From Ceratodon purpureus (taxonomy: Eukaryota > Streptophyta > Bryopsida > Pseudoditrichales > Ditrichaceae), in contig CM026426.1 in assembly GCA_014871385.1 (NCBI GenBank), forward strand, positions 44,812,484 to 44,876,483: a DNA stretch of 64,000 nucleotides, in the 5' to 3' direction. Position numbers and translations under genes: made by a program. Below the pieces are notes generated by a model, which ran no database searches, had not been told where the DNA came from, and saw only the letters and a list, made by a program, of their open reading frames with translations. Within the stretch, counting starts at the first letter, position 1. Every line of letters begins with the position of its first letter. This document shows positions 3,910 through 35,529 of the stretch, piece after piece.

Positions 3910-3926
3910 GTCGGCAAACTGCCGAC
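3910..3926. repeat. 17-bp dispersed palindrome (GTCGGC-type)
   Basis: Reads GTCGGCAAACTGCCGAC: 6-bp outer arms that extend to GTCGGCA/TGCCGAC, with a short centre. It lies between FCP1-like copies 3 and 2. Degenerate or full members also occur at 3068-3084, 4142-4158 and 5433-5449. Confidence 0.75.
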
Positions 3927-4134
3927 AAATCGATGCATTGAAGAAACCTCAAAGGTAAATGTGCAGCGAGGGAAATCTCATGCATGGATCTACAAAAAGA
4001 AGTACCAAACTGCAGCACTGGAAACAAATGTGTGGTGCAGGGAAGTTCAATAAGGGAACAATCTTAGCGTATTTACCTAAAGAGTGTAGAGTATCATATG
4101 TGCTTATAAAAAACTAGCGCCGCTGGTATAGGCT

Positions 4135-13362: not shown

Positions 13363-14148
13363 AGTATTCCAGTGTGCCAACCGTAGAAATCACTTTCCAC
13401 AGGCTTTTTACCCGTAGGGAAAGCACTGCACAAGATCCTCCTCCAACTTCTGGTACATAGCAAGGACGTCGGTGTCCTTTGTTTTGAAAGTGAGATTGTT
13501 TGCGAGCATGAGAGCATCCACCAAAGTATGCTTTTTCTCTTCCTTCTTCCCACCTTTCTTCTGTCTCCCACCCTCGCCCTCAGCAGCCGGAGCCTTCGCC
13601 TTCTTCTTCCTTGTTGACTCCCCTGTCGCCTGTGTCTTTCAAGTCTCGGGGGTAACTGTATCAGTGCCCGCTTCTACAGTAGTCTTGCGGCCGCCTCTTT
13701 TCTTTGGTGAAGGCTTAACTGCACTCTTCTTCTTGTCTTCCATCACTTTGTCTCCGAGCATATCAATCACGTCGAGTATCTGTTCAACGTCTTCGGGGTT
13801 CTCGCCTCTACCCCAAGGAACCGCTTCCTGTATTTCCTTGGAACACAAGTTGTCTATACACTTCTTAACCGTAAATACGACCGCGAAGCAGTCCACTGGG
13901 ATCCCCTCCACCACAAGAACCGTTGCATTCACCAAGTACATATTGTCCTTCCTCTTGCATTCCTTGCCTCCTATGATCTCGAATCTTGGTCCACCCTGCA
14001 TTTGCTTCTGACCTATTTTGGTCACGAATCCCAGTGACATGGGAGTGTCACGCCAAGTGATGCCTTACTCCGTTATCTTCAAATCAGCGGGGAATGTCAC
14101 CCTCGATTTCATGCCCCGTGCAATTATTGTTCCTTCAGGATCAACAAC
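13363..14148 (-). pseudogene. middle part of the interrupted ParB-like gene
   Basis: One minus-strand frame reads DPEGTIIARGMKSRVTFPAD, then MSLGFVTKIGQKQMQGGPRF, CKRKDNMYLVNATVLVVEG and ENPEDVEQILDVIDMLGDKV. It then becomes Lys-rich (VMEDKKKSAVKPSPKKRGG and later RKKKAKAPAAEGEGG) before LANNLTFKTKDTDVLAMYQ. In-frame stops occur near 14072, 13639 and 13410-13390; some fit C-to-T, others do not obviously. It joins 9906 across the CCGG-rich element on one side and 33956 across the LTR element on the other. The fold is unknown to me. Confidence 0.5.
14144..14148. repeat. 5-bp target duplication ACAAC, left copy
   Basis: ACAAC directly precedes the left LTR and is repeated at 33956-33960 directly after the right LTR. 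Confidence 0.9.
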
Positions 14149-14823
14149 TGTTAGCCCGCGTATAACATGGAGATGCTTAAAGGACACGGGAAGGGTAAGG
14201 AGGTAGGAATTTAGAGGGTTAGACAGATTAAAAGAGGGTCCAATTACGAGTCACGGTCATAGGGCGTAGGATGTCCCAACGGAATGACTGAGGTTGTTAG
14301 CGAGAGACTGATACCGTGGGAAGTCCTAGGGAACAAGGCAGCGAGACAGAGAGGGGGGAAGACTTGTGGAAGTAAGTCCTTCCAACGAGGGTTGGAGCCC
14401 CTGACTTCTTGCTCATGGAACCCCAAAGAGAACCTAGTGCAGGCGCATCAGAAAGTAACCAGACAGAACCGCAAGTACTAGATCAGTAGGCCGGGTTAGG
14501 GTTAAGGGAAGAACTCATACAAAGAACACCAAGCATACACACAAGAATACAAGGGAGGTGAAGGTGAAAAGGGCGAGTATAGCAAAGGGTAGATAGTCTT
14601 ATAGAATGGCAGCGCCAAGGATTCCAAGAGTCCCAGGTCCTCTGATACAAAAGTGGCGGCCAAGCACCGAGACCGAGACTCGACTCTACTAAGGCAAAAT
14701 GAAGAGTGTATGTTCCTACCAAGCTACCCTGTTTATACTTGCTATTTTCCTATTCTCTCTGTCCTAACTGATAGTTCGCACCGTCTTGGCTTTCTTGGCT
14801 TCCATGGGTCGAGCCAGGTAACA
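14149..14823 (-). repeat. LTR (3' LTR in element orientation)
   Basis: 675 bases starting TGTTAGCCC and ending GAGCCAGGTAACA on the plus strand, nearly identical to 33281-33955. A purine-rich tract lies just inside it on the element strand. Confidence 0.95.
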
Positions 14824-15120
14824 TTGTGCCCTCCCTTGGAGAGTGCAATCCGTCCTGGGTTGCAGGTCAGCCACGCGTGCGTCTCCGGGCAGGTCTTCGA
14901 TCCGGGCGGGTTTCCTCACGGGGAAGCTGGATGCTGCAACATGGAGGAGCCTGGTTTCCGTAGATGGCAGCTATGGTTGCACCAACACCTCTGTGGATTA
15001 GATTGTGTTTGGATCTTGAGGTCACTGCATGCTTAAAAACATCATATACAGTTTTTCATAAGATTCTATTGCAAGCAGGGCATTGTACGTGGTCAGCCTC
15101 GGGATTGCTATAGAGAGCAA
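14824..15120. other. untranslated part of the LTR element
   Basis: Non-coding sequence between the additional ORF and the 3' LTR. I see only the purine-rich tract next to the LTR. Confidence 0.5.
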
Positions 15121-17039
15121 TCAGGTCAGGATGGCGGTGAAGTAGCGCTTCACTTCTTCAATCGCGGTCTCCAATTCCTCCTCGGCTTCGTCATCATCAC
15201 TGGCCTGCACTTCAAGTCCAAATTCCTCTTCTATCTTTTTTAAAACATCCTTATGTGTTTTAAAGGTTTTAGGTCGCGGGGGTACGATGGGATTGACAGG
15301 GCTTGGTGCAGCTTGGACTGTTGGTTGCAGGTGGGGAGAAGGCTGAGGTGTGTCCTCGGGGTCATCGAAATTCTCCGGGATATCAACATGCTCAGCCTGC
15401 TCATGGAGGTCGGCGATGGTCAAGCTAGGAGGCCGTGGATCCTCCTGGGGCGTTCTGGCCGGGCTGATCTGGGCATGCTCCTGATCTGGTACTATGAGAG
15501 GGGACAAGGCTTCCATCGCTATGTCTTCCAAGTCCACGGAGTCCCAGTCATGCTCGGACTGCTCCAGCTCCAAAGGCAAGAGAGCATTGTCGATGCAGTA
15601 GTTGAAAAATTCTTGCGGGGGTCTTCTAACTGCGACACATGTTCTCGCAGCCACTGATGGGCGTGGGTGGCGATTACCCTGGCAGCTCGATGTATCCACC
15701 CGAGCTTGTTGGCTTCAAAGTCTTGCATGGCCTGCACGTCCTCAGGCTGCTGTCCCTGGGGATTGGAAATACTCCCAGTGCCTTGAGTATTCTAGCCTTG
15801 CTCCAAGGTGTTGTTGTGAGCAGCCAGGGCCTTGCACTGAGCTAGGTATTCATGGCTCTGCTGCTCCAGTCTCTGAATACGCTCTCTTGCCCTGGCTTTC
15901 TCTGTAGTCAGGGTATCCACGTGCTTCTGGGTGGCCTTGAGCTCCAGTTTGGTATTGGTAACCTGATGGCGTAGGTTGGTTAACGTTTGAGTTGTCTCTA
16001 CCATCTGCTGTTTGTATTCTGCGTGTGTTTTCTCCAGGATAAGTTGTGCTTGTTCACGGGTCATTTGCACCGCCAGTGTTACCTTGCGCTTGTATCGTTC
16101 CTCCAACTCCCGCAGCTCCGTTCTAATTGTTGCCTTCTCCTGCTCTGCAGCATGGATCCACTGCAACATCTCCCCCACGCAATTGGAGAGAGCCAATCCC
16201 TGGGCGTGGAACTTGGTAGCTTGCGGTCCCCATGGTGTGGCTTGATTATCGTCCTTGGCTGGCTCTAAGCTTCGAGGACGTTTGCTGGGGCCGGGAAGTG
16301 CACGGTCCCGGGTAGCAGCTTGAGCAATCTCCCGCTGGACATCCAAAAAACTTCCCATCTGGGGCCCCTTGCCATATCTCCGATGGTATGTGACATAATG
16401 TGAGATGTAAGAGCTGAGAAATGGCCCAATGGGGCTGGAGTACTTGGGATTTGCTCTGTAACCGCGGAGCTGCAGTCGAAAATTCTCCTCCACAATCATC
16501 CTCCAATTAATCTTTTCTCCTTTGTCGGCCATGAAGAGCAGGGTCAGCTGTTCCGGTGTAATGCTGTTGTGCACAATTATTTTGGAAATACACCTGGCTC
16601 AACACGCCGAGCATCCGTGAGAACCAAGGGTCCTTCAACTGATCACCCAAAGCAAAAATGTCATACCTGCCCTTCTTCTTGCCTTTAGTGTGTGGCTACA
16701 GATCGCCTACGCGGGTGCGAGATTGGGCTTTGGGTAGACGCACCCCGTGGTCCATGCTGTAGCAACCAAGCCATCCCAGCCGAAAAACTTGTGAAGGTAC
16801 TTGTTGGAAAATTGAACCAAGACGCCCTCGATCATACCCGATGGATACGCCTCGGTCTCGCTGCGGGTACGTATAGACTCCACGAATTCCTTGCAATGCT
16901 CTATGTTCACTTTCTCCTCTAGCAACGTCCAGTATCGTCCTCATCCAGCGCTAGTGTGCCTGATCAGGTCGGGCCGGCGCTTCCACTCCATGACCATCCT
17001 TGGAACATAGAAGGGCGGGGATACTTTTCTACTCTCCAT
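15121..17039 (-). pseudogene. additional ORF of the Ty3/gypsy element (fossil)
   Basis: Lies between integrase and the 3' LTR. It begins around MESRKVSPPFYVPRMVMEWK. A globular part contains INWRMIVEENFRLQLRGYRA and SSPIGPFLSSYISHYVTYHRR. A long coiled coil follows (ATIRTELRELEERYKRKV, LKATQKHVDTLTTEKARARE), then a Pro-rich acidic tail. The layout resembles the PF20167-like plant retrotransposon ORF seen also at 10998-12812, 44181 and 47341; this family assignment is inference. Broken in several places. Confidence 0.55.
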
Positions 17040-17410
17040 GCTATCTAACTGTGTGTGTGGCGGAATGTGCAAGGGAAAATGCGAGGCACACAGCTCAGTG
17101 AAGTGAGAATGCCCAAGGCAGAAATGGCAAGCCGCATTGGCTGTGGGAAGGGAAGGAGGAGACAATGGATGGGAGGAGAGAGGGGGAAACCATGGTGCCC
17201 TTGGCTGCAAGAGATGTAACCTGGCGGCCCGGATGGGATAGCAGAGGATTTCTATGGAGTACTAAGGGGAGACATCGGGTAGTCTAGGAGGTGAATGGCT
17301 GATAGCGCGGATGGTGGCGGCTGGAACCTCATGATGCGGAGGCTAGTAGGTGTCGAGCCTGTCCCATCGAAGGGATGCCTTGGGTAGTTGTTGGGAGCCT
17401 TTATGCTGAC
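17040..17410. other. spacer between integrase and additional ORF
   Basis: No coding features that I would defend. It is internal untranslated sequence of the LTR element. Confidence 0.4.
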
Positions 17411-19515
17411 CTAGATGAGGCTTACATGGAGTGCCATGGTTTCCATGTTTTCTGTGGGGTTGACCGAGGGTAGAGTTTCCAAGGTGTCGGTGTTGGCCTG
17501 GGCCTCAGTAGCCAGGGCTTGATAAATCTCGCCTAGGCTAAGAGCAGGGGCTGGGTTCAAATTATCCGCATGATAATGTTTTAATTTTGTGGAATTTATT
17601 ATTGTTGCGTGATTGTCATAGTTGTCGTTATTTACTAAAAGAACTGTATTATTTGGTAACACTAATTGTACTTGGTAAGGCCCGTACCACATGGATTCAA
17701 ACTTTGTTCTTTTTAACTTGGGATCCCAGGCGTACCAGAGAACTCGGTCTCCTCTCTAAAAAATCCTTAGTGGTTTGGTGGATTGAAAATATCTGGCGCT
17801 CAACTCTTGCTTATGAGCAATATTTTTAATGGCAAAGGCCCAAACCTCCAACAGATGAATATCATGGATGCGTGCTGCCTAAACTCGATGGGGGGCACAA
17901 TCCTTGGGCTGCAAGGTTTGAAAAGTGGGGGCAATATACCCTCTTGGTAATAAAGGTTGGGTGCCATAGACCATCTCAAATGGGCTGACCTGGGTTGCTG
18001 TTTTGACGACTACTCTATAAGCCCACAATGCTGCTGGAAGGCCGTCACCCCAGTCCGATTGGTTAGCATGGATGAACCTGCGTAACATGTTAATCAGGGT
18101 TTTATTGGTGGACTCGGCTTGCCCATTTCCTTGGGGGTAGTATACGGTACTAGTTCTATATTTTATAATGTGATTTTCCATGAGATCCTCGATAACAACA
18201 TTGACGAAATGGGAACCTTGGTCGGAAACAATCTCCAAAGGGCAGCCAAAACGAGTAATTATATTTTCGTAGATAAAGGAGGCCGTGACCATGGCTGTAT
18301 TTTTTCTTAATGCCTTTGCTTCAACCCATTTAGTTGTGTAATCCGTGGCAACCAGGATGTATTTGTAGCCTTGCCTAGTGGCTAGTTTTATGGGGCCAAC
18401 AAAGTCTAATCCCCACCGTTGGAAGGGTCCTAACGGAGGAATGGATTTTAAGGGTACACGACCTTGGTACTGAAAGATAGTCGTGGAAACCTGGCAGAAA
18501 TGGCAATGCTTAACATACTCATGGACATCGTTGTGAAGACTGGACCACCAGTAGCGAGCTGCTAAAATTTTCTTCATTGTGGTTTCGGGTCCCTGATGGC
18601 CTCCTGCTGGGCCGTCATGGAGGATGGTGATGATATTGTGCTCTTCCCCCGTGGGCACACAAAGGCGGAGTTCCTGGTCTATGCCACGGCGGTATAACTG
18701 TCCTTGGACCACAGTATAGGGCAGTGTGGTACGTACAAAGCTGACCCTGCGAGTGCTTGTAAGATTGGGTGGTGTATTGCCTTGGGTCAAATATCTCATG
18801 ATATCTCCTCGCCAATCCCTGGGAATGTCACCTTGTAAACTTGCAGGTTGTATGTATGGTTCATTGAACGAGTCATCTATGCCTTCCTCGGTAGCCTTGG
18901 TGTCCCCAGACAGGTAATCTGCCACTATGTGTCTCTTACCTGGGACGTACACTACTTCAAAATCATACTCGAGCAGGATCATTATCCACCTTGCCACCCG
19001 GCCAGTAACCAGAGGCTAGTTTACGAGGTAAGACAAACTATGATGGTCTACCATGAAACGGAATTTATTCCCTAATAAGTAGTGCCTAAATTTTTTAACT
19101 GCATAGACCATGGCTAAGGCTTCTCTTTCGGTCGTGGAATAATTTCTTTCGGCTTGATTCAATAGACGACTGGCATAGGCCACGGGTTGATCATATTTCC
19201 CGGTAATATTGTGAGCCAACATGACGCCTACGGTGATGTTTGAGGCATCGGTATGAACATGGAATGGCTTGGTCCAGTCAGGGGCGATTATTATTGGAGT
19301 ATTAGAATAGGCGAGCTTGATTTTTTCCAGGGCGACTTGTGCTTCGGGGGTCCAGTCTTGCGGATACTTGTACTTACCATGGTTGAGTGCCGTAATTGGG
19401 GCAGTGATGTGGGCAAGCTTTTCTATGTAGATCCTGTTAAACTGTGATAGTCCTAGGAGCCGTTGTACTCCTTTTTGGTCTGTTGGGGGTGTAATGTCCA
19501 GGATATCGGGTGGAA
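17411..19515 (-). pseudogene. RNase H and integrase region of the Ty3/gypsy element (fossil)
   Basis: RNase H motifs are visible: HVHTDASNITVGVMLAHN, NYSTTEREALAMVYAVKKFR and FRFMVDHHSLSYLVN. The integrase follows with its HHCC zinc finger ([14 protein letters not shown] to YVKHCHFC), the catalytic core ([46 protein letters not shown]) and a C-terminal part with MWYGPYQVQLVLPNNTVLL. This order defines Ty3/gypsy. The 5' side of this part is cut by the DNA transposon. It is broken, with a small number of interruptions. Confidence 0.85.
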
Positions 19516-19523
19516 GCATACTA
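19516..19523. repeat. 8-bp target duplication of the SET transposon, left copy
   Basis: AGCATACT here and AGCATGCT at 30157-30164 (7 of 8 identical). They flank the inverted termini, and both lie in retrotransposon sequence. Confidence 0.75.
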
Positions 19524-20315
19524 AGGTGGCTCAATATTTACATGTACTTGTACCCAAGGAAGTACCTGAAGTCAACAGTTTTTGGAAGCTTAAGATGCGA
19601 TGAGTACATGGGATACTGTTTGCTTTCTTTAGTGAAAGGTGACAGCTTGGTATTACGCGTCAGGGTCGATTAATACGGGGATGCCGCGTGGGGCAGGGCT
19701 GTCAGGATGAGGCCAGATTTGGGTTAGTAACGTACTTTTGGAGAGTACAGGTGATCACCGGTCGCGGATGGCGGGAGAAGGGTGACCACCAGTCACTCCA
19801 ATGGGAGACCCTGATCTCTCACCGGTCAAGCAGGTGGTCGTCTCGCACCTCGCCACCTCTGTTCCCCCCTTGGGAGTTTAGGGTTTTTTTTGAGTTTTCC
19901 GCTTGCGCCAGTTTTGCGGTCGTTCCGTAGGTTGCTTGTGTTTCTTCTTCCCCCCTCCTGCTTGTGTCGCTTTTTTGGCTTCTAAACCGTAGCTCGTTCC
20001 TTTTAGTATGTGGAGGCGTGGAAGTGTAGAGTCGAGGGGAAATACTCAGGGTGTTAGAGTGAGCGCAAGTGAATAGAGGCGTGCGGTACAGGCATACATG
20101 TTGGAGGCGCGACTAAGTACAGGGTGCGGTTCTGGTGAGCGTCGAAGGCGCCTGGCACTTGTTGTAAGAGTGAGTAAGATCACTCTACATATCTACTCCG
20201 TGAGTGCTGTGTGTGTTCTGTGAATCTGTGAGGTTTAGGGTTAGTCTTCAGAGTTGCAATGACGATGTGAGTTTTTCTTCTTCTCGTGGTGTTGCAGGTG
20301 TTTAGGGTGCTGTAA
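19524..20315. promoter_or_regulatory. left terminal region and leader of gene A
   Basis: Non-coding. It contains the terminal inverted repeat, then GTAC-containing words (ACATGTACTTGTACC) and a GC-rich leader. No promoter element can be named. A GTGAGT-type donor and a TTGCAG acceptor near 20250-20297 hint at a 5' untranslated intron, which is unproven. Confidence 0.35.
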
Positions 20316-23300
20316 ATGGGAAAGATGAAAGGCCCGCCTATACAAGTTGGAGGGAAGTTGACTCAGTCTCCATCAAAGACAGGGTCGCTGAGTGCTGCGA
20401 AGAAACCTGTTTGCAGCGGCAGCGCCAAGTCTAAGGAGAGTGGGCCGAAGGAAAGAGATACCGTCTCAAAAGCCAAGGCGGTTGGAGTGAAGGTGGTAGC
20501 GGACGCTGCTACGCTCCTTGAAAGCGACCGGGTAGAGAATGAAGATGAAGGCGTCGGAGAGGAGGAGGACGAAGACGTCGTCGAGCTCGTTGACGTGAAT
20601 GCTGCCCTCGTGAAGTGTAGAGCACCGCCGGCAATTTTGCTGGAGGAGGATTGGGTGAAGTTACACAATCTCTGTGGGACTGGAGTTAACCCTAAGCGCT
20701 TCAGCAACGTCTTCAAGTCTGCTGACGACATGGCGAAGCTCTTTGGCAAGCGGTCAGGGAAAAGAGGACGCAATGGCTACAAGTGGCAAGACTGTCTAAA
20801 CGCGAAGGTGATGGAGAGGGTGCTGGAGCTGCACCCCTTGATCTACCAGCACGATCCCCAGCAAATGCCTCCGGTGCTGAAGGTGAAGTTTGCAGAGGGA
20901 ATCCAGCATGAATTTGTGCATGGAGAGGGAAGCGTTAATTGGGCAGCTTTCGCACAAGAGGTTAATCATAGGCAGCGGAAGATGCGTGTTGATACGCGAG
21001 AGAAGCTGCAGTACTGTAAGGACAATGGAGTCACGCGGGTGAGTAAGGATGACATTTACAAGCTGAAGCTCGAGACGTCCGTAGGAGATCCTGTAGCCAA
21101 CGTCAAAACGGTACGTAATCCAAGGACATCTCCCAGTTTTTAGGGTTTAGGTGATTTGAGAATTGTCCACACACAATTCTGAAGCAATTAGATTAGGTGT
21201 GCAGTATGTACATGGTCTGAATTGGTATAGGGTTCGGCCGCAGGATGCTTCAGAGGTTTGTGGAAGTCGGATCCCAACGAATCAGGAGGTTGAGCTCGGA
21301 AGCTGCACTGCAGAGAGGCTCGTGAGATTGGGAGACATTGCGAGGATCCTCACGCTGGAGAGGACAGCAATAACTGCAGAGGTAGGGAAGACCAAGACGA
21401 AGATTGCAGCGTTGTGCAATACAAAGAGGGCGTTGGAGGCTAATTTCGACATGTTGGAAGACCAGCTTGCTGCGCTTGATGGAGATGCATGGGAGCCTGC
21501 GAAGTTAGAGGCCCAGGAGCACGTGAAGGCTCATTTCGATCAGATGAGGGAAAGGAATAGAGCAAAGGTAAAGCAGACTGAGGAGGAGTGCCTAGCAGCG
21601 AAGACAGACCTTGAGGGAATTCAATGCCAGTTGAAGCGAAACCAAGTCGGGCTTAATGCTATCATTGAAGAGGCCAATCAGCTGAGGTTTGGAGGACGAC
21701 CGTCAGGAATATATCCGTGGCCTATGTTCTATCCCCAGCCGTCAGCTTCGTCAAGTGAACCAATTCTAAGTATATCCATTTCGCATTGTAGCTTGTGTTC
21801 TTTCGGTTTTCCAAATCGTGATATCATAGTCGCAGGTTGCATGCACATCTACCATCCGTGGTGTGCGTTTGCTGGTTTTAGTAGAGGGGACAGGTGTGTG
21901 GTGAAGGATTGCTCGGCAGTAGTCCATCCCAGTTGGTTCCAAAGCTTCGGGTGGGGTGTCGCAACTAAGGAGATCGAGCAAGAAGCTGTGAAGGTTGATG
22001 TTGATGTGCAGTTGTTGGGATTTATGCATTCAAGGGAGGAAGCTGTAAGACAGCAACAACCTCGGGAAGAGATACCTGTCATGGAGAAGGGGGACGCAAA
22101 AGGTATGAAGCTCAGGACCAGGTCTTATGGACGAGTTATTAGACTTATATTGTCGATTGATGGTAGACGTGTCACTTTCGGTGTAATGAAAATGAGTAAT
22201 GTGTACTTAGGTTTAAGCACCAACTTCAGCTAGGTAGTTCTATGTGTAGCCAGGGTACTCTACAAGACTAATTGCCGGAATTACGTACAGATTGGGGTGT
22301 ACGTTGGGTATTATAGAACAACCTTCTCATAGCTGGATAATGTGAGTATTCTGTTATCATACTTCAAGTAGTCGAGGGTAGCAATTGCTAGGGATACGAC
22401 TACTATATCAAGTACGCTCTGTACACTCCGGGTGCAGTGGTTACTATATCATGTAGTTCCATTCCATTGAGTACTGCACGTAGATACTTGAGGTACACTT
22501 TATGATTACCATAGGTACGTGATTTGTATACTGGGTACTCTAATGTACGCACTTGCCTCGCATAGTGTCCAGAGTACCGAAGTAGGTAGACAGGGAAGTA
22601 TAGGCATCTCGTTGACGGTAGTTTAGGTATCCAGAGTACTTTCATACATTGGACTAGGTACTGCTCTATTGATTACCACTACTCCTAGGACTCTGAGTAC
22701 AGCTATTAATGTCTTGTACTGACTGTTGGTGCAGGTTGTGGTTCAGATCTAACAGGGCCGCAGACTCAACCTGCTATTGCCGACGTAGTTGCCTCCCCTA
22801 CCGTCAACGGAGCTGCTGGCGAGATTCCACATTCTGTAGCAGTGGATCATGTAATGGGGAGCGGTTTAGCTCAAACGATCCCCGATGCTCCGGGTCCCGT
22901 CGTTACAGGATTCACTACCCCGAGACAAGTCCTGCAACCGCCGAGACTAGGTGACGCATCTGGGAGCTTGCCGAAGAAGCAGAAGTTCAATCCACCTCAG
23001 CCATCGGGTTTTGCAGGTTAGCTGAGGTGTAGTTAAGTTGCGTTTTCTGAGTGTTTTTGTCCTCGCCTGAGTCACTAATTCTAGGAATATTTGATCCGCA
23101 GCGTTCCCTAAAATTAATGTTGAAGATGATGAGGATTCTGCTGCCGATACTGCCTCATCAAAGAAGGATGAGGCATCCGATTCTGACGGTGAGGGAGATG
23201 ATGGGGGGGAGTCTCCTGTTGCATTGCACGCTCTTCCGTCAGTTGCCCATACAGAGGAGGAGCCTTGCGGTTCTGGAGACAGAGTTGTAGGGGCCGAGGA

Positions 23301-23526
23301 GTTGGTGGAGCCACTTCAGGTGCCAAAGGCGTTGCCGGTGGAGACTGAAGGGGTTTTGACTCGGAAGGGTAGGGCACGAGGGATGGCCCTGAAGGATGCA
23401 AGCATGGCGAAGGAGTTAGACAGTCCGGCCCAAGGCAAGCCATCAAAGATGATGAAACTGAGCAAGGAAGCGAGCCCTACCACAAAGAAGAAGGCGGTGG
23501 GTAAAAAGAAAAGGGGTAAACGGTAG
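20316..23526 (+). CDS. gene A of the SET transposon: coiled-coil protein with a RING/PHD-like finger
   Basis: Four exons with fully consistent phases: 20316-21110, 21244-22102, 22735-23016 and 23102-23526, giving about 786 residues and no internal stop. The N-terminus is basic, then an acidic block (EDEGVGEEEDEDVVELVDV), then a globular part (DWVKLHNLCGTGVNPKRFSN, KRGRNGYKWQDCLNAKVMER). Exon 2 holds a long coiled coil and then a Cys/His cluster: CSLC, GCMHIYHPWC, CVVKDC, a C-x2-C...C-x-H-x3-H-x2-C arrangement like RING or PHD zinc fingers. The last exon is acidic and then strongly Lys-rich, ending KKKAVGKKKRGKR, a probable nuclear signal. Intron 2 is loaded with GTAC words. A chromatin or DNA-binding role alongside the downstream SET gene is inference. 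Confidence 0.7.
22103..22734 (+). repeat. GTAC/GAGTACT-rich intron of gene A
   Basis: About 630 bases between GTATGA and GGTGCAG. It contains repeated words such as GGGTACTC, GAGTACT, AGTACT and GTACACTC, in both orientations and at irregular spacing, far denser than in flanking exons. The same words recur in the transposase introns and near both ends. Confidence 0.6.
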
Positions 23527-23675
23527 CTAGACAGTTTTGTATGCGAAAGTACGGATTGCATGTAGTCAGTGTTGAAGTAGTGACTGCCCGTGGTCATGTA
23601 AACGATGATAAGTTATTTTGCTTATTGTCAATTTTTTTATATATATGATATTTTTTGCAAAGTGAATTCTTTTAC

Positions 23676-24852
23676 ATGACCACGCAGGTTACATGGTTTG
23701 ACCACTCTGACATTTCTAGGGGTCTGGAGGATGTGCCTGTAGCGGTACAAGTGCCTGTGGAAGGCAACTGCCCCATGGCTCCGTTTATTTACGTCCCCAG
23801 CACTATTTTGAGTGAGGAGGTAGTTGTTGGTAATAAAAGAGAAAGCAGTTGTTATTGTTATGGGCAGGATTGCTCACAGGACCCGGGTGCTTGTGAATGC
23901 ATGCGGAAGAATGGTGGAGCATGTGCATATGATGCAGACGGACGCTTGAAGGTGGAGGATCACGATGTAATGGAGGTACCGGTTTAGTACTCAAGACTTC
24001 TGGTTTAGAGTTTATTATATTTCATTTTTGTGTAACATTCTGGAAAGGCGTCTTCATGCTCGATGTCTTTGTTGTGTAGGTACCGGAGTTACGTTACTGT
24101 CGACCAGGCGAAGGGTGTTATTACGAGCTCGAACGATCTAGTGATCCTCAGATAGGATACGTTGTGTGTAGAGGACATTATGAGCGAAAGTTTATATTTG
24201 AATGCAATCTGTCATGCTTGTGTCGTGGAACTTGTAGAAATAGAGTTGTACAGAAAGGGCTGACCTTAAAGTTGAATGTAGTTTGGACTGGAGGTCGGGG
24301 TTGGGGACTTCAAACACTTCAAGCCATAGAGAAGGGACAATTTGTTGTAGAGTTTGCAGGTCAGATTTGTACAAATCGGGAAACGATGTCGAGGACAGGC
24401 TTGCGGTCCAGCAACGGCTGGTACTCTCTCAACCTAGATGCTGAATGGAGGGCGGAAGCGGCAAGTAACGACGATACGGCTCTCAACATCGACGGAGTTT
24501 TATATGGTAACGTGGCACGTTTTTTGAACCACAGGTGCAAGGATGCTAACCTGGTGGACGTGCCGGTGAGAATCGAGCAAGCTGATTCACGGCTATATCA
24601 TGTGGCCTTTTTTGCTTGTAGATATATCGAGCCAGGAGAGGAACTCACATGGGTATGACTTCTCCTTTACTTGGTGTAGGTGATTCTGTTTTGGAGCAGT
24701 TTTTAGAGTGATCGAGTCTCTTACTTACTCCCTGTTGTCGGTGATGTCTCCTTGAATACTAGGATTACGGTGAGGAGGGATACAGCACGGGTTCTAACGG
24801 CGGGCCATGTTTGTGCGATAGTTTAGCGTGTAGGAATCCAAGCCGACATTAG
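23676..24852 (+). CDS. SUV39/SUVH-type histone lysine methyltransferase encoded by the transposon
   Basis: Three exons, 23676-23975, 24080-24652 and 24763-24852, all phase 0, give about 320 residues with no internal stop. Pre-SET: DISRGLEDVPVAVQVPVEGN, then the Cys cluster CYCYGQDC and CECMRKNGGACAYD, and ECNLSCLCRGTCRNRVVQ. SET: RGWGLQTLQAIEKGQFVVEF, GNVARFLNHRC (the NHxC cofactor motif), AFFACRYIEPGEELTWDYG with the catalytic-site Tyr. Post-SET: PCLCDSLACRN with three Cys. All expected motifs of the H3K9 (KMT1) class are present, so activity is plausible. No SRA, chromo or ankyrin domain is seen, so the protein is minimal. A TTG just upstream or a further 5' exon spliced at CACGCAG (23687) is possible. 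Its position inside the terminal repeats makes it transposon cargo. Confidence 0.88.
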
Positions 24853-25216
24853 TTCATAGATTTGCATAGACATTCAAGCCGCCTGTAGAGGCACCTCAGA
24901 TTTACGTGGACAGAACATTATCTCGAAGACGAGACTGTTATGGAGGATTTTTGATTTAACAGTTCGGTTCGATTTTCAAGTGGTTATATAAACTGTGCCC
25001 ATTACGTATGGACTTCTCATAGATCATCATTTCTGTTACAATTTTTTTTGCCCACAGTATAAACATTCTACTCAGAGACAGTTTATCTATTTAATTTGTT
25101 TTCCAAATTTTATACATCGTACTCTATGCGTACACATCCTACTACTTAAAAGACGATTGAATTATTGATTTAAATGTTTGCCCAAACGGGAAATGTACCC
25201 AAAATACATCCGGCAC
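24853..25216. terminator. space between convergent genes
   Basis: AT-rich, non-coding. It must hold the 3' ends of the SET gene (plus) and the DDE-like gene (minus). I see no distinctive signal beyond AT-rich runs. Confidence 0.4.
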
Positions 25217-26225
25217 TCAGCTTGTAACGTCATCAGTTGCCCACCATGCTGATAAGACTTGTTGGATCATATCTAATGTCTCGTCCGTCATCTTATAAAC
25301 TGCATCACCACCCCGAACCACATGCGAAGCTAGAATCATCGGGAATTTTGCGACCCTAATCTTACTTGCATGGACGTGGGCCTGCACGGATCTTTCGAGG
25401 TAGACAAAGGTGTTTGACCCTCTCCCGTACTTCTGATAGTATGTGCTAGCCACTGCAAAATCTCCCTTCTGAAAAGATTCTACCCATGGGCAAATGAAAT
25501 CCTCTTCGACCTGAAACCTATTCTTTGTACACTGCAACACATAAAAATCAACCCCCTCATCGTTGCCTTCGAAAGCCGGTATCATGAAGTTGTCTCCTAC
25601 AGTGAGAAGGATTGAATGTGAGTTGTCACTCACACTCGCTACCCAATTCTCGGGATCATCTTCACATTCGATTTGCTCTTGTACTTCAAGAGCATTTGTT
25701 GGTCAAAGACGTACTAATCGCCAATCTTCCACATGCGACTTTTGCTCACAATGCACCCACTCCTGATTAATGCAGGGCGCACAGAAACATGACAAATCAC
25801 GCACCATCAGCAATGTAGGATCTGTCCTTGAAATTCCGAGTATACTATGGAATTGCCTAGAACCTGATATAGTTCTACATTTCCACTCATTCACTCTGTC
25901 AACATCTCCAAGGCCAATATGCCAGAACACTCTAGATATGGGCACCTCTTTCGAAACATCAAAAGAACTGACAGCTCTATGACTGCACTTTGTTTTTAAA
26001 AAGTCAACACACTGTGATGCGTTGGCCAACTCGTCTTCTGGGTGCTGAATTTGATGGGTGCGTAAAGCCCTCTTTGCAACCGCTCCAGCTCCATCCCACT
26101 CCCCTGCACCATTTGTATTCAAGACGTCAATACTCACGGTACACAAAGAGTTCATAGAGTATCAACAGAGTACTCTGCTTGATGGATGGTGCAACAACAG
26201 TACTTAGAGTATGACGTTGAAGCAC

Positions 26226-26376
26226 ACGGGTACGCCAATGTCGGTACACGGGTACTCCAGTGGGTACCACACGGGAACTCCAATGGGAACCACACGGTTA
26301 CTCCAACACTTATCCACATGGGTACTCCAATGGGTACCACACGGGTACTCGAATTGGAACCACACGTGTACTCCAA
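26226..26376. repeat. minisatellite of about 23-bp units in the last transposase intron
   Basis: About seven imperfect units with the core CACACGGGTACTCCAATGGG, each 21-24 bases. They sit in the intron (26104-26439) between the exon ending at GHGK and the exon beginning EWDGAG. Confidence 0.75.
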
Positions 26377-27481
26377 AGTACGCACAATATTAAGAAAAGA
26401 GAAGGTGTACACATGAATGGCTAAGTGAGACCGCAGTACCTTTCCCGTGGCCTGAACCGAAAAAACTCCATCTCATCGTGCATCCTGTGAGGCCGGGGTA
26501 TTGAGCCACAAAATACATGGCTCGAGCTCCCTTAAACTGTCCGGCACATCCGTCGCTATACACCCAGTGTTCTGTAGGCTTCAAACCTGCATCTACCACC
26601 CACTTCCAATGCAAAAGCATACAATGTTGTACAAACAGGCTATCATGTTTTTTATCATCACTAATATAGTAATGAGTATGTTTGATTAAGCCTAAATCCA
26701 CACCTTCTTCTGTCAAGGGGGGCTTGTACAGAGTAATGTGCACAAGTATAGTTATGGAACTACTAAACCAATGCATACTTTGTACCTCGTTCTAAATTGC
26801 AAAAGTATAATTTTCTGCGAAATCAATATGTGAAATTAAAACACCATGTGGCACGTTCTCCATCATCTTACGGCACTCTGCATCTTGCCAATTGGCAACG
26901 AAATTGTGAGTGACAAACTGCTGTACCTTTTTCTTCAAGTACGATACAAACTCACCGGGTGCCGTTTCTTTGAACACCTCCTGGATACGTTTCTTTTGTT
27001 GACCTGTTTCTTCATGTATCCCTATAACTTTCATCTCAAAACATCTCCACTTGACCAACAAATCAGTGGCAAGGTCGCATTCTTGAGGACAGAATTTGAG
27101 CATCTGAACTCCACAAGCTCAGCAGTCGCCCATTAAGCAAGAGAGCTTATGCCATTTTTCAAGCTCTCCTTTGGGACACACACATGCTTGCCATAATGTG
27201 GAGATTCGTTCAAATGTCTTAGAGATAGCAGAACAACCATTTGCATCACTACCGCAAACCTCACACCCACATGTACAACCTATGTGACAGTGATTAACCT
27301 TCGAGGAATCTCGGATCGTGTTTATAGCTTCCCTTAAAAGATCAATTTCTACATGATAGACACAGCAGCAAGAATTCTGATCTTTCAAAGTTTTCACATA
27401 CCAGGGTTTTAGATACTCAAAAGCTCGCTGCTTAATGTGGCATTCGGGATGCGCTTCCTTAAAATTTAGAAACAGTTGGGC

Positions 27482-28141
27482 CTGCAAGAAAATGCACTAA
27501 TCAGCCACGTATAGCATCACCACCAAAACCCTGATTCGGAAATGGTAACAAACAGAATACTTTGAGTATACAGTTCCTATGTCATGTACCTAGGCTACAT
27601 ATAAGAGTACTCCTAGTACTAACACCCTTATACTTATAACGTAACAATACTCAGAGTAATAACTCAAATACTACTGACGTTGGCATGAGTATCGTACAAG
27701 ACAGTCAGAGTACTCTCTTCAGTACTCTTTTAAATCTGGGTACTACAGTGTAACTCCGTTGAATACTCTAAGAAGTAGTCGTGGGTATCTAGTGTACTAT
27801 AAGCTATACTTTGAGCGAACCAAATATCTACAAAGATCCTGTCTCCACCACTGGATATGTACCCAGATTACCATCCCAATGAACTACTTACTTCTACTTG
27901 TACTAATACCAACGTAGGAGACATCATGACTACTGCAAGAGTACAGACCTAAACGTGGGAGTAGTTAGAGTAACAACTCTTCTAAAAAAAATGCCCAGTA
28001 AGTGATCTTCACATTCTAAGGGAGGACTCCGAGTAGGTGTGGTTGTACAGACCAGAAATGTAAGCATTTGAGAAATATAATGAGAATCTGAGCTCCTATT
28101 ACAACATTAATTTCAACTAAGATTATACCATTTAATCATAC
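27482..28141 (-). repeat. GTAC/GAGTACT-rich transposase intron
   Basis: A 660-base intron (GTATGA to TTGCAG on the minus strand) with many GAGTACT, AGTACTC and GAGTAT words, matching those in the gene A intron at 22103-22734. Confidence 0.6.
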
Positions 28142-28850
28142 CTGGGCGTCCGTGAGGTAATGTGTAGCATGTATTACATACTCATTCCTCTGTATGCGCT
28201 GTCTAGTTACGTCCTTCTTGTTGGGTGAAACGCGGGTCCTCCCATGCCAAAACACTCGCACAGCCTCCTTCACATAATCTGACAAGCCAGCCCGCTTGGC
28301 CCGCTCCAAAAGTTTGTACTGCTCGTTAACATCTGTGCACGCAGTTCTCCTGTCTAAAGCATTCGCAATGTTCCGGGGATGTACCTGCAGACCAAAGTGA
28401 GGATTAACAACACATCAGGGAGATCAAACTCCACATCTACTGGAAGTCACCACAAATGCATCACCAGAGTCACTCCAACGTCCTTAACATCACATCTACG
28501 ACGGCTCTGAAATCCCGATACCACCATAGCCCTATGAACTCCTAAACCTAGGATACTTGAAGGAGCAGTGAACATCCTCAATATCTATAGTCCAACAGTG
28601 AAACCAATATCGTAAACCGTCATTTAAAAAAAAAGACTGAACCGTAGACACTATCATGTCTGATCTTTCGTACACCAAATGGACGTCACTTTCGGCAGAG
28701 GATCAAACACGATTCCGATTCTACTATAGTGGGTTAGCAACTACAAACCTGTAAGACCCTGGAGAGCCCCCGCATCGATGACGACACATCACTAACAGCG
28801 GCGTCCAGAAGACCGTGGGTAGTACTCAGGGAGCATTGGCCAAATCCCAT

Positions 28851-30143
28851 TGTGATTCAAAAGCTTCTCAAGCACAGTGCTTTTGCAAGTCGCTGGTGGG
28901 CATTCTTGGAGCTCAGCCATGATGCACATCGCCAATTTTGCTGACTTCGAAGTAGTCTACCGCTCACCCATGCCACTCGACTCCACCGAACCTTCCCCGG
29001 AGTGCCGCAGTATCTCAATATTGCGATCTTGTGTTCCTACCCTCTCACGATATTTCTGCATTCTCAGTCGGGATTGCTCTGCCAGGTACGCACGTTTTAC
29101 TTCAGCTGCAGCTGCAGCGGCAGCTCGTCCTCGTGGCCCAGGTCGGATGATGCTCAGCCGAGTCCGCTGCCGATTAGCTTCATTCCCCATAGCAAAATTG
29201 CAGATGAATCTGTCTAAACCCTAAGACCAGCGTCAGGAAGAGCAAACGTTCCCAGCGAAGACCACAAACCCTAGGCCAAATCCTTGAACCCAATTTGCAA
29301 AAATTCCTCCACTCAAGAAACAACACCCTGCTAGACAGTACCCTAACAAAACCACGAAAACAACACCAAGAACCAACGGCGGGAATTCCACAGACGCAGC
29401 CACAGCCGCCCCCCCACAACCTGTACTCCGCACGCCAAGGGAAATGATCCATCGGATCCTATGTGAACTTGGAAGGAAATCTGCTGGAGCCAGTAAGACG
29501 AAGATGAACGTCGTCATTCTTCCATCAAACAGCGAATAAAGCCCCTCTTAACGGAACGGCCTACCACGACTGGTCCTAAAAAAAGATGATACAGAGTATC
29601 TTGAGTACTCAAAAGTACGAACTGTTGATTTTCCCGCACTTCCTACTGGCATGCTTGGGCGCCAAAAACCATCTGTTCAGACCCTGGCTCATTAAGGGAC
29701 AACGGTCCTCAGTAGGAATGGGAAAAAAAAAACAAAAAAATTCCAGTTTTTGATCAAATTAGACCATGTCAAAATTTTGGCACTTTGACCGATAAAAAAA
29801 GCAAAGAAGGAATGAGTTTTTGGAAAGTAATAATACAACATATTAAACACTAGAAGGTGTTCTATGAGCACAAGAAATCTTCCTAGTACTTCGCAACTTA
29901 GTATTTGGCAAAATTGAGTACTTTGTGCATTTTTTCCTGACAGCAACGTACTCCTATGAAAAAGTTTAAAGGGAATTTATAGTATGTTGCAAATGCCTAT
30001 ACAAATTTTGTCAAGTACAATTGCACACCTAAACACTCCTTCTTCAATATTATAAAAAACAAAATGGTACTTTGGCGTGTATACACCCCAAAAAAGGTCC
30101 TTGAACATGGAAATTTACAGCAAATACAGGGCGTAACGTACTT
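28851..30143. other. upstream region of the transposase gene and right subterminal region
   Basis: 28957-29190 (minus) has an open frame starting MGNEANRQRTRLSIIRPGPRG with an Ala-rich, Arg-rich segment. A stop and then a frame change separate it from the exon at 28850, so it may be a decayed first exon. 29191-29520 is GC-rich leader. 29580-30143 is AT-rich and again has GAGTACT words (for example around 29596-29620) up to the terminal repeat. No other gene is seen. Confidence 0.35.
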
Positions 30144-30156
30144 TTTGATCCACCCT
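30144..30156. repeat. right terminal inverted repeat of the SET transposon
   Basis: TTTGATCCACCCT, the inverted counterpart of AAGGTGGCTCAAT at 19524 with two or three mismatches. It abuts the target duplication at 30157-30164. Confidence 0.7.
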
Positions 30157-30164
30157 AGCATGCT

Positions 30165-31948
30165 TTCACCCTATCCTTGATTTTCTCGGGGTCAGGGAGT
30201 TTCCCATATTTGCACACGATATATCCAAGGATTACGCCAGCGAAAAACAAAAACATGCATTTGTCAGCATTTAAGCTTACCCCGTTTGCACGGCATGCCT
30301 GGAAAATTTGACGGAGTTGAGCAACATGGTCTTTCATGTGCCCGTAAACGGTTTTGTCGTCTAAATATATCCGGAAGAATGTTTTCAACTATGGTCTGAA
30401 AATTAATTCCATAACACGTTGAAAAGTCATAGGTGCGTTTTTGGCCCGGAAAGGCATTCTTTCAAATTGGTAAGGGTCCCATTCGGTAGAAAAAGCCGTT
30501 TTGTTTTTATCTTGTTCGGCCATGGCAACCTGGTAATTTTCTGAAAAGCAATCTAGGAATGAGTACATTTCATGGCCGGCGACCTCGTCAATTATCTCTT
30601 CCATGTAAGGCAAAGGATAATGGTCTTTCTTGGTTGCAGCATTCAATTTACGGAAGTCTACGCAGATCCGTAATGTTCCGTTTTTCTTGGGGATAATTAC
30701 CATGGAAGAAAGCCAAGGTGCGAAATCCACAGGTGATATAAATTTGGCTTTTAGTAATTTATCCAATTCGGTTTTAACCCTTTCTGCATAGTTTGGGTTC
30801 ATTCTATATCGTCTTTGTTGTACCGGGGTTGCATTGGGAACCAAGTCAATCGTATGTTCTGCTAGTGTCCGTGGTATCCCTTTGAGGTCTTCATGTCCCC
30901 ATGCAAAGATATCTTGATATTCATGAAAGAGTTCGATAGCAACCTTTTTTACTTGGTTTGGTGCATTAGCATTGATTTTGATATATTTGGGACTGTCCAG
31001 AGTTCCCAAGTTTACTAATTCAATTTTATCCTTGGCACCATGGGTCCAACCTGTGATAACTTCCTTCCGGAGGGTTTCGCTAGCGGGAGTAGCTTGAATT
31101 GTCACGGTTTCCTGAAGCTCCTGTGAAAAGTGAGGAGGTATATCCATTTTGTCTTGATCTGCTACCATACTGGCTAGATGAATTTCTGCTAATGGAATGA
31201 GGTCTAGATTGGCCTGGAACACCATGGCTTCCTGTTTTGGGGATAAACCTTCTACCGAGTTTGTTCCTGCCTTGTGGCGAATTTGGTTTGCTCTGGCTCT
31301 AGTGATACAACTATCCACGGGAGTATTAACCGTTTTGCCTTGCCTTTGAATACGTATCTGGTTCCTAGACCATTCGTGTACGGCATTCATATCTCTTAAC
31401 CAGGGTCGCCCAAGGATAACTGGGAAGTTACTGCTATCAGGCATATCAATGATGACAAAGGTAGCAGGTGTGTAAACCCCATGAGTAGTAATAGCTAGAG
31501 TTGATAGTATGCCTAGAGGTGTGACAGGGGCATCATTGGCCATGCGCAGTATAAATTGGGCAATTTCGGGTGATGGTAAGCCTAGATGTTTTCTTAGATG
31601 ATTGCTCATCACATTGACCCCAGAACCTCCATCTACCAGTACATTTGTAAGTTCATGGTCCCCAAGTTGGAAATGGATAACAACTGCGTCAGGGTCCAGC
31701 GTGGTTGCATTTACTTCAATGATTTCTGGATCATTTGTTGCTGCAGGCGTAGCTGCCTGCTGTAAATATTTTTGTAGTTCTAGACTCAATTTAATTAACT
31801 TGGAAAGCGTGATTGTGACATTTGTGTCGTCCAGGATTGTTTTGCATGTGGGAACCCTGGTTCGATGTTTCCAACCCCTCTTGTAAGTCTTTTCGAATCT
31901 TGTGAAGCCGTTCCCAGTGATTTTCCGAAAATGGTTTCCTGGGTTCAA
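30165..31948 (-). pseudogene. protease and reverse transcriptase region of the Ty3/gypsy element (fossil)
   Basis: The aspartic protease motif is in VLVDGGSGVNVMSNHLRKHL. Reverse transcriptase motifs follow: FISPVDFAPWLSSMVIIPKK, GTLRICVDFRKLNAATKKDH, YSFLDCFSENYQVAM, FERMPFRAKNAPMTFQRVME, and the catalytic box in RIYLDDKTVYG. The 3' side is cut by the DNA transposon at 30157. Broken, with a small number of interruptions besides the insertion. Confidence 0.9.
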
Positions 31949-33218
31949 CCACGTGTTCGTCTGGGGTTGCTTTGGACCGGGTGGTTACAACCGCGGTGCT
32001 AATAGTGGACACATTAGTTTCAGCCCCATGTACCTCGGTGAGTGTAACTCCCCCACGCCTTGGTGTCCGTGGTGTTTTTTGGTTGTCAATGGTTCCTGGA
32101 TTTTCTGAAGGCGAACGATACTGAGCCCATCTTTGTTGCAGCTGAGGGCATTGGCCCCGCCTATGGTGTAGGGAACCGCATTCCCAGCAAGCATCATTCC
32201 GCCCTGGTTGAAAAGCATCCACGTTAACCTCCTCGGGATACATGGCTGCCGTAGTTGAACGGGGACGGCGAGTATCCTCTAGCCGGGAGGAGTTCCCAGC
32301 ATACCAGCAACGACCCCCATGTATCTTTCCACAATCGGAGCAGGGCGCGAGAGGTGGTCGATTTTCCGTTCTTAGGCTGGGTAATGGTAGCAGTGGAGCC
32401 TGTGTTTTGTTTAAAGCCCCTAGCTCTCGGCTAATATCGTTGGCAGCGGTTAATATATCCCCACGAATCACAATGCCTTGTTGGATCCATGGTAATAATC
32501 TTTTTTTAAACCATTCACAGAGGTAGTCTTCCTTAGGACGCTGGTCTAGTTTGTCGGCCAACTGCTTGAATCTATCATAGAATTTGTCCACGGGTTCATT
32601 TTTCTCCTGTGCAATACTTCCTAAGGCACGCAAGACCTCTGAGCTAGTTTTGAGTTTTCTAAACTTGTGCAAAAAAATTCGCTTTATATCTTCCCAGGTG
32701 GCCTGGTAGTGTTCTGTTTCAAATCGATATACCAATTGATGTGGTTGCCCTGGAGTGTGGCACCAAAAATGTTCTGTAGGTCCTCGGAATTGGTGACACC
32801 ATTGGTCCTTGCAATAACTTCGAATCATCTGATGTGCCAATCCGGATCTCTAGATTCATCAAAGACAGAGTAGGAGATTTTAGGGAACTTGGTATGTTTG
32901 TTCATGTCAACTTGGCTGGGTATCGTAGCAGCCATGTGATTTTCATGAGGGATCCTAGTGGACCGTATTGCCTCAGGGATAGCTGCCGAAGCTTGAGGCG
33001 TTGCGTTTAAAGCGTCCTGAGTTCTACTGTCCTGCAAGCTCATGTATTGAGCAGTTAATAGTTCTAGTTTGGCGTTGGTAGCCTCATTCTTTGCTACCAA
33101 GTCATCCATTTGCTATTTCGTCTATAACAGGCATTCCTTGATAGATTCGGGGTCGTCTTGGTTGGCAGCTTCTTCTACCTCATCTATGCGCTCCACTGGG
33201 AGCTTCCTTGGAGGCATG
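31791..33218 (-). pseudogene. gag region of the Ty3/gypsy element (fossil)
   Basis: Begins near MPPRKLPVERIDEVEEAA. The retrotransposon gag core is recognisable (TWEDIKRIFLHKFRKL, VLRALGSIAQEKNEPVDKFY, RFKQLADKLDQRPKEDYLC). It is followed by a CCHC zinc knuckle, CWECGSLHHRRGQC. It overlaps the start of the protease frame by about 150 bases, as in many gypsy elements. Broken, with a few interruptions. Confidence 0.8.
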
Positions 33219-33259
33219 GTGATTTCTCAAGGAAGGCCTAGAGTATCTTCAGCATTCCA

Positions 33260-33277
33260 TCCCCGGCATGGTCGCCA
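33260..33277 (-). promoter_or_regulatory. primer binding site resembling tRNA-Asp
   Basis: Three bases inside the 5' LTR the element strand reads TGGCGACCATGCCGGGGA. This closely matches the TGGCGCCGTTGCCGGGGA expected for plant tRNA-Asp(GUC), the primer of many Tat/Athila-type elements. Confidence 0.65.
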
Positions 33278-33280
33278 AAA

Positions 33281-33955
33281 TGTTAGCCCAGGTATAACAT
33301 GGAGATGCTTAGAAGACACGGGAAGGGTAAGGAGGTAGGAATTTAGAGGGTTAGGCAGATTAAAAGAGGGTCCAATTACGAGTCACGGTCATAGGGCGTA
33401 GGATGTCCCAACGGAATGACTGAGGTTGTTAGCGAGAGACTGATACCGTGGGAAGTCCAAGGGAACGAGGCAGCGAGACAGAGAGGGGGGAAGACTTGTG
33501 GAAGTAAGTCCTTCCAACGAGGGTTGGAGCCCCTGACTTCTTGCTCATGGAACCCCAAAGAGAACCTAGTGCAGGCGCATCAGAAAGTAACCAGACAGAA
33601 CCGCAAGTACTAGATCAGTAGGCCGGGTTAGGGTTAAGGGAAGAACTCATACAAAGAACACCAAGCCTACACACAAGAATACAAGGGAGGTGAAGGTGAA
33701 AAGGGCGAGTATAGCAAAAGGTAGATAGTCTTATAGAATGGCAGCGCCAAGGATTCCAAGAGTCCCAGGTCCTCTGATACAAAAGTGGCGGCCAAGCACC
33801 GAGACCGAGACTCGACTCTACTAAGGCAAAATGAAGAGTGTATGTTCCTACCAAGCTACCCTGTTTATACTTGCTATTTTCCTATTCTCTCTGTTCTAAC
33901 TAATAGTTCGCACCATCTTGGCTTTGGTAGCTTCCATGGGTCGAGCCAGGTAACA
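33281..33955 (-). repeat. LTR (5' LTR in element orientation)
   Basis: 675 bases from TGTTAGCCC to GGTAACA on the plus strand, followed by the ACAAC duplication at 33956-33960. About 15-16 differences from the other LTR, several clustered in its last 60 bases. Confidence 0.95.
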
Positions 33956-35127: not shown

Positions 35128-35529
35128 CCATTAGGAGAAAAATCAGGTCACAAAAAGGCCGTGTAAGCGGCACGTGAGAGAAAAAAACGGGCGCTGCCCG
35201 CGTACTTTTTGACATGGCATGTGAGGTGCCACCGTGGTGCCAGCAACCGCCACGGGGGCTCGAACCAATGACCTCCGAGGGAGGCGTGTGGAGGGCACAT
35301 CTACAGTGTCGGGCTAACACAACCTGTCCTCTTGGGACCAAAGCCCGAGCCGAGGCATTCATGTCTCACCTAATATTCCGAGGACCTTTGTTGTGAGTGC
35401 GCCACGCAGTTCTGTGTGGGCAGCAACTCTGGCATCCGCTGCCAGCGGCAGAGGTGCCCAAAGTAGGGAGTTCACCTAGAAAGGGCAGGCTTACACGGCC
35501 TTATTTTGAGCTCATTTTTCTCCTAATGG
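35128..35529. mobile_element. 402-bp TIR element with a tRNA-like core
   Basis: Terminal inverted repeats of about 40 bases start CCATTAGGAGAAAAAT on both ends and share AAGGCCGTGTAAGC. The interior, read on the minus strand (about 35340-35240), has GGAGGTCATTGGTTCGAGCC, which matches a tRNA T-arm/B-box region, preceded by a D-arm-like TTAGCCCGACACTGTAGA. This combines MITE-like ends with a tRNA-derived (SINE-like) core. No clear target duplication is seen. A half copy lies at 1738-1857. Confidence 0.6.

Follow-up and report, generated by a model that had tools for sequence, protein, structure and literature searches.

In a 64,000-nucleotide stretch of Ceratodon purpureus DNA (contig CM026426.1, positions 44,812,484 to 44,876,483; the window, numbered from 1), we found a cut-and-paste DNA transposon with three genes, inserted in a Ty3/gypsy element, where 8 bp of the target are duplicated. 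One of the genes encodes a putative histone lysine methyltransferase of the Su(var)3-9 class, domain-complete and uninterrupted, and a short word, GAGTAC/GTACTC, is dispersed through the non-coding DNA of the element. We put the probability that the element addresses this chromatin modifier to its own copies at about 0.42. An earlier note had reported a transposon carrying a complete methyltransferase gene at this place, an observation that is real, correctly placed and partly over-interpreted. It did not mention a broken transposase-like gene, a second intact gene beside the SET gene, or the over-represented 6-bp word. The element and its ends are as follows:

19523 to 30156, no strand: whole DNA transposon, 10,634 bp, interrupting gypsy pol
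19515 to 19522, plus strand: left target duplication AGCATACT, matching the right copy at 7 of 8 positions
30157 to 30164, plus strand: right target duplication AGCATGCT, from the end-pair scan
19523 to 19534, plus strand: left terminal inverted repeat AAGGTGGCTCAA, 10 of 12 against the other end
30145 to 30156, minus strand: right terminal inverted repeat AGGGTGGATCAA, from the end-pair scan

The ends come from a scan of all pairs within two 401-bp regions (19300-19700 and 29950-30350), with inverted ends of at least 10/12 adjoining direct flanks of at least 7/8. Exactly one pair passes, AAGGTGGCTCAA / TTGATCCACCCT with flanks AGCATACT / AGCATGCT, and it delimits the element. None of 60 single-base shuffles yields any qualifying pair, and with this uniqueness we reject a chance origin of the ends. 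The element therefore has the inverted ends (10/12) and the target duplication (7/8) of a terminal inverted repeat DNA transposon. Both had been claimed before, and they stand with two corrections: the duplication is imperfect, and the element starts at 19523 rather than 19524. A direct repeat of 15/16 between 19727 and 30133 was considered as an old internal end and rejected, since we estimate that about 0.6 such pairs arise by chance in 10.6 kb.

The insertion target is a single retrotransposon:

14142 to 33955, minus strand: host Ty3/gypsy element, with long terminal repeats (LTRs) at 14142-14823 and 33276-33955

Pfam matches on its minus strand include the integrase (17879-19015) and RT_RNaseH (19019-19537, E 1.2e-29) on one side of the transposon, and RVT_1 (30392-31984, E 2.7e-12) on the other. 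A second RVT_1 match at 30158-30388 (E 0.00039, under the cut-off) covers profile positions 148-192 of 205. Because the RVT_1 and RT_RNaseH matches flank the transposon, pol is split between reverse transcriptase and RNase H, which confirms the insertion inside a Ty3/gypsy element. The two LTRs are 97.5% identical in a self-comparison of the window, with 18 substitutions in 682 columns (10 transitions and 8 transversions) and 2 gap columns.

The best defined gene of the transposon is the SET gene:

23676 to 24852, plus strand: SET gene, 320 amino acids, exons 23676-23975, 24080-24652 and 24763-24852, with Pre-SET, SET and post-SET and without stops

Its two introns (104 and 110 bp) are each GT..AG and each in phase 0. 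The protein has the motifs NHRC, ELTWDYG and CLC, as the earlier note had read them, and a post-SET CxCx4C. Pfam assigns SET (E 1.5e-18) and Pre-SET (E 4.5e-13) to the spliced protein. These are also the sole families listed when the element is scanned in six frames, with stops masked, introns kept and matches considered up to E 5. A search of PDB returned 97 distinct sequences at E of at most 0.001. Among the best 60 of these 97, the top match is GLP/EHMT1 (3e-31), then G9a, with SETMAR at 3.1e-29 and SUV39H2 at 5.3e-28; SUVH6 (7.6e-23) and SUVH4 (7.4e-14) are weaker. Conserved in the alignment with GLP are GWG, NH in NHxC, Tyr in DYG and the cysteines of post-SET. The protein thus combines Pre-SET, SET and post-SET with the catalytic NHxC and DY of the Su(var)3-9 class, and is a putative enzyme of that class.

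Calling the gene SUVH-like, as had been done, is not supported, because SRA is matched neither in the SET protein nor in the element's six frames (introns kept, E up to 5). The absence of SRA agrees with the SUVR1/2/4 type, and we take NHRC and LTWDYG to be SUVR-like. Of WIYLD, for which we presume Pfam to hold a model, the same six-frame scan (introns kept) gave no match. Plant SUVR4 and relatives are likewise Su(var)3-9 class SET proteins without SRA, according to parts of PMC7218100 and PMC4260354; they differ from the case here, where WIYLD is unmatched and the gene is carried by a transposon. The SET gene may start further upstream or be spliced into a fusion with the gene before it, gene A. 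A 17-bp inverted repeat (23589-23605 / 23668-23684) bridges the gap from the gene A stop to the SET start. Scanning viral_contigs with the SET protein, a search that reaches close relatives only, found no relative.

Upstream of the SET gene, on the same strand, lies the second intact gene:

20316 to 23526, plus strand: gene A, 786 amino acids, exons 20316-21110, 21244-22102, 22735-23016 and 23102-23526, without stops in the model

Its four exons (786 codons) are separated by GT..AG introns of 133, 632 and 85 bp. By eye, the N-terminal part is acidic and the end basic (KKKAVGKKKRGKR). The product is likely a coiled coil. The first 503 amino acids gave four PDB matches, none significant (E 0.11-0.48); two of these carry entry names suggesting designed coiled coils and a third is Rho kinase 1, which agrees with a coiled coil, without significance. 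Two viral stretches (L001, L002) found with a finger pattern of gene A were dismissed as chance matches (best tblastn E 0.15). Query P0001 found no relative in genome_contigs.

The third gene runs in the opposite direction:

25217 to 29190, minus strand: putative DDE transposase, broken, with exons at about 29190-28749, 28384-28141, 27481-26440 and 26103-25217

It is interrupted by four stops (28957-28959 TAG, 27119-27121 TGA, 26792-26794 TAG and 25703-25705 TGA) and by one frameshift in exon 1, so this copy should be unable to move itself. The translation has a cysteine-rich segment and the motifs HIDFAENY, YSDGCAGQFK and HGKGEWDG, in which we read by eye the putative DDE/D acidic sites (the D of HIDFAENY, the D of YSDGC and the acidic pair of HGKGEWDG). 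No Pfam family matches the gene, the six-frame scan included; PDB has nothing credible for the core (best E 0.41), and an AlphaFold2 model of the core made without an alignment is unusable (predicted local distance difference test score, pLDDT, of 32). Two parts of the protein, used as queries against viral_contigs and again reaching close relatives only, found no relative, and degenerate patterns built on the DFxENY region had no hit in viral_contigs or genome_contigs. By its motifs, its place in the element and its likeness to unnamed animal transposase-like proteins, it looks like a former DDE transposase. Another transposase-like gene lies outside the element at 38124-39893; its frame 38124-38792 matches DUF7869 (E 2.9e-35) and contains FLIVGHTHEDID, and by eye its D...GHxxxxxD pattern resembles the transposase-like gene described here.

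Over about 872 codons the transposase-like gene has collected its four stops and the frameshift; the cargo (gene A and the SET gene) has 0 over 1,108 codons. Under equal decay by length, P is 0.017 for the five lesions and 0.038 for four stops against 0. Intact cargo beside a broken transposase-like gene hints that the cargo may have been constrained for longer. Codon statistics and the motif counts below used a start of transposase exon 3 at 27484, where the gene model has 27481.

Non-coding DNA of the element (4,692 bp) contains GAGTAC/GTACTC 27 times, compared with a mean of 3.3 (standard deviation 1.8, maximum 9) in 300 dinucleotide shuffles. In its 5,942 bp of coding DNA there are 2 counts (shuffles 1.8). 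GAGTAC also ranks first among canonical 6-mers by count times log ratio when non-coding DNA of the element is compared with the outer window (27 where 2.5 are expected, with slightly different non-coding limits). The word is present in 7 of 12 non-coding segments, and three introns with the right end hold 23 of the 27 counts:

22103 to 22734, no strand: gene A intron 2, 6 GAGTAC/GTACTC in 632 bp
26104 to 26439, no strand: last transposase intron, 336 bp with 6 GAGTAC/GTACTC, of which 4 lie within a tandem array
26223 to 26376, no strand: 23-bp tandem array in that intron, 6.7 copies of the unit CACACGGGTACTCCAATGGGTAC, with 4 of the 27 motif counts
27485 to 28140, no strand: transposase intron, 6 GAGTAC/GTACTC in 656 bp, palindromes GAGTACTC among them
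29191 to 30156, no strand: right terminal non-coding region, 966 bp with 5 GAGTAC/GTACTC

Extended, the consensus reads approximately (A/G)GAGTACT(C/T). Outside the element, the left 14,000 bp have 6 counts of GAGTAC/GTACTC (5.2 in shuffles) and the gypsy flanks (9,165 bp) have 4 (2.4). The shorter word AGTAC/GTACT is over-represented at 34001-64000, with 59 counts against a shuffle mean of 37.5 (40 shuffles, maximum 52).

SET-bearing transposons are known from water moulds. HarbingerS and the SET-bearing MuDR elements of Phytophthora were reportedly described by Kojima and Jurka in 2014. HarbingerS has a Harbinger transposase and a 3-bp duplication. SETMAR, which in primates is a gene of the host that has fused with a mariner transposase and not transposon cargo, also ties a SET domain to a DNA transposon, and its solved SET structure was matched here. 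With HarbingerS and SET-bearing MuDR the present element shares a SET histone methyltransferase gene carried by a DNA transposon, as far as the available parts of the sources go, and differs by its 8-bp duplication together with the lack of a Pfam transposase match, on which two grounds membership in HarbingerS is rejected. Its host, of the green lineage, is a further difference. MuDR/MULE membership is rejected as well, since the MULE transposase domain, which we presume Pfam to include, is unmatched, though 8 bp would fit. The same applies to the KDZ transposons (Kyakuja, Dileera, Zisupton): the 7-8 bp length of the duplication fits, and no KDZ transposase is matched, where we presume Pfam to include these models. 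In the available portion of the source, KDZ elements likewise carry an enzyme of epigenetic marks as cargo, with 8-bp duplications in Zisupton and Dileera; the enzyme is other than SET.

Part of PMC12730594 states that Phytophthora HarbingerS and MuDR transposons bear SET histone methyltransferase genes, and that TET/JBP genes occur in fungal transposon lineages. An extract of PMC4067079 adds proto-Helentron-Pi of Phytophthora infestans, with a SET gene likened to the SET domain of Clr4. That element belongs to the Helitron/Helentron type; it has Rep/Helicase, and its SET protein, for which the extract does not mention Pre-SET, measures about 153 amino acids (PMC4067079); the element here is cut-and-paste, with Pre-SET, SET and post-SET. 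The premise of the earlier note, which knew of no stand-alone SUVH-like gene as regular transposon cargo, is not supported in view of these cases (PMC12730594, PMC4067079). The element is a variant of the transposon-borne SET genes of water moulds, not the first of its kind. In the portion available of PMC3145265, a review of stramenopile epigenetics, nothing was found on transposon-borne SET genes. Nor was a SET-bearing transposon of the green lineage found among the papers, 20 at most per search, listed from the open-licence literature of PubMed Central, searched with few plant and algal terms, which is weak evidence of absence.

The dispersed GAGTAC word is a new observation, and it makes the idea of self-targeting testable. 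A parallel is known from Arabidopsis. According to parts of PMC5735166, a short motif bound by VANC21 has built up in VANDAL21, within introns, between genes and in the terminal regions, often as tandem repeats, and VANC binding causes loss of DNA methylation at the VANDAL motif regions. Enrichment of a short motif in the non-coding DNA of the element is likewise found here (27 against 3.3), in the same layout of introns and terminal non-coding DNA and partly as tandem repeats (PMC5735166). The VANDAL motifs, YAGTATTAY or AGTTGTMC, are unlike the GAGTAC word, and the part of PMC5735166 available reports no histone methyltransferase gene. No VANC-like protein was recognised in the element, where SET and Pre-SET are the sole matches in six frames, a negative that holds only if VANC has a Pfam model.

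From the ends, the target, the gene order and the motif, all of which are observed, we infer a mechanism in several steps. The minus-strand gene would once have been a DDE transposase, and this copy would need transposase from elsewhere. A protein of the element, either the product of gene A or the transposase, would bind the (A/G)GAGTACT(C/T) word in introns and ends, and the bound protein would recruit the SET enzyme to copies of this same element. There the enzyme would alter the methylation state of lysine 9 of histone H3 (H3K9), giving the family control over its own silencing, like VANC in VANDAL and by another biochemical route. The motif layout, which is the same in kind as that of VANDAL, lends this proposal indirect support. 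Directing H3K9 methylation by a DNA word is plausible because, according to part of PMC7218100, plant SUVR4 turns monomethylated H3K9 (H3K9me1) into H3K9me2 or me3, and SUVR5 reaches DNA via zinc fingers, which in vitro recognise a short sequence. Between the possible outcomes we lean towards a weakening or diversion of host silencing, for example by turning H3K9me1 into a state unused by the host's loop, over self-silencing; the sequence does not decide between them. A more far-reaching version is doubtful: that this is an undescribed transposase family whose self-addressing kit combines a methyltransferase of the H3K9 class with a nuclear partner protein and with a AGAGTACTCT-like address in introns and ends, by which the family would set a histone mark on its own copies.

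Several observations weigh against the self-addressing proposal. No second copy of the element is present within the 64-kb window (self-comparison), and elsewhere the transposase query gave two weak short matches alone (E 0.07 and 0.66). The SET protein departs from GLP at two residues, CEY becoming VEF (the Tyr of CEYVGE is Phe) and GFDYG becoming TWDYG (Phe is Trp). Since we take both to face the lysine pocket, its activity and product are uncertain. For the related SUVR2, which acts in silencing, part of PMC4260354 reports no detected methyltransferase activity, so a non-catalytic role of the SET protein is possible too. Neither gene A nor the minus-strand gene has a DNA-binding domain recognised in the Pfam scans, and a RING-like match in gene A is below threshold (zf-RING_16, E 0.0064; 16.6 bits, where the cut-off is 27.4). 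As for the word, four palindromic places were counted on both strands, so the 27 counts are 23 places. It is absent from the outermost 60 bp at either end, and the right 30,000 bp outside the element have 18 counts against 10.3 ± 3.3 (maximum 18 in 40 shuffles), an excess that is at most mild. The integrity of the cargo is less telling than it looks: if codons that a single transition would turn into a stop serve as weights (82 against 100), equal decay gives P of about 0.09, and the stop count of the cargo is biased because the introns of gene A were chosen to keep the frame open. Apart from this proposal, the picture of the insertion itself is not perfect: the gypsy flanks, once rejoined, are one base out of frame where they meet, and gypsy pol has one more in-frame stop, so the gypsy element was itself decayed, or one copy of the duplication lost a base.

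The points on copy number and decay are in keeping with a rather unlikely alternative, in which an active transposon took up a host SET gene together with gene A, and the cargo is useless to the element and perhaps present only in this copy. One copy is seen, it may be an immobile relic given its dead transposase-like gene, and the SET gene retains introns, as expected of capture at the DNA level. Such a passenger would not be expected to stay free of stops beside a gene with four of them, an argument of modest weight, or to recur, as SET genes do across several Phytophthora transposon lineages in the sources available in part. We regard it as improbable, more so than passenger capture, that the motif is a binding site of the transposase and that the SET protein serves target choice or tolerance of heterochromatin, not self-regulation. 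GTAC words lie at most 26 bp from both ends, and this copy landed in another transposable element; full GAGTAC is missing from the two end segments already mentioned, the densest clusters lie in introns mid-way in the 10.6-kb element, and a single insertion is uninformative on target preference.

It is very improbable that we are dealing with more than one element, with gene A and the SET gene forming a separate, older insertion or a host segment nested in the transposon. The two genes are oriented opposite to the transposase-like gene, and GC content at third codon positions differs (0.55 in gene A, 0.45 in SET, 0.41 and 0.43 in two transposase exons). Between 19535-20315 and 24853-25216, however, there are no 10/12 inverted ends with a duplication of 2, 3, 4, 8 or 9 bp, and no long repeat pair brackets the two genes. 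A nested transposon around them is thus rejected for want of a bracketing end pair, the scan having covered this kind of nested insertion and not others. Moreover, the GAGTAC word occurs in an intron of gene A, an intron of SET and two transposase introns; its presence in both halves argues that they belong to one element.

Other features of the window lie apart from the transposon. A probable full-length piggyBac-type element spans 55083-60421, with TTAA on both sides and ends CCCTTAAAGGTCAG / CCCCTAAAGGTCAT that agree at 12/14, the best among the TTAA pairs scanned (without a shuffle control). It has an open frame of 1042 codons (56080-59208), where DDE_Tnp_1_7 (E 4.7e-76) matches behind a long RG-rich part. 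At 62610-63855 there is a gene of glycosyltransferase family 29 (GT29, sialyltransferase-like), of which a 100-amino-acid piece matches (E 1.4e-23) and which, with the general style of the genome, may point to a host of the green lineage; at 3151-4998, on the minus strand, two frames resemble NLI-interacting-factor-like phosphatases (E 4.8e-06 and 1.8e-09). A 41-bp inverted repeat (35128-35168 / 35489-35529) and a block of about 118 bp with 78% identity (1737-1854 against 35412-35528) are perhaps parts of a short repeat family.

Hosts silence transposons by H3K9 methylation. An element with an H3K9-class enzyme of its own therefore bears directly on how transposons evade or exploit that silencing. 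Together, the SET genes in oomycete transposons, the TET/JBP genes in fungal ones and the present case suggest a repeated recruitment of epigenetic enzymes.

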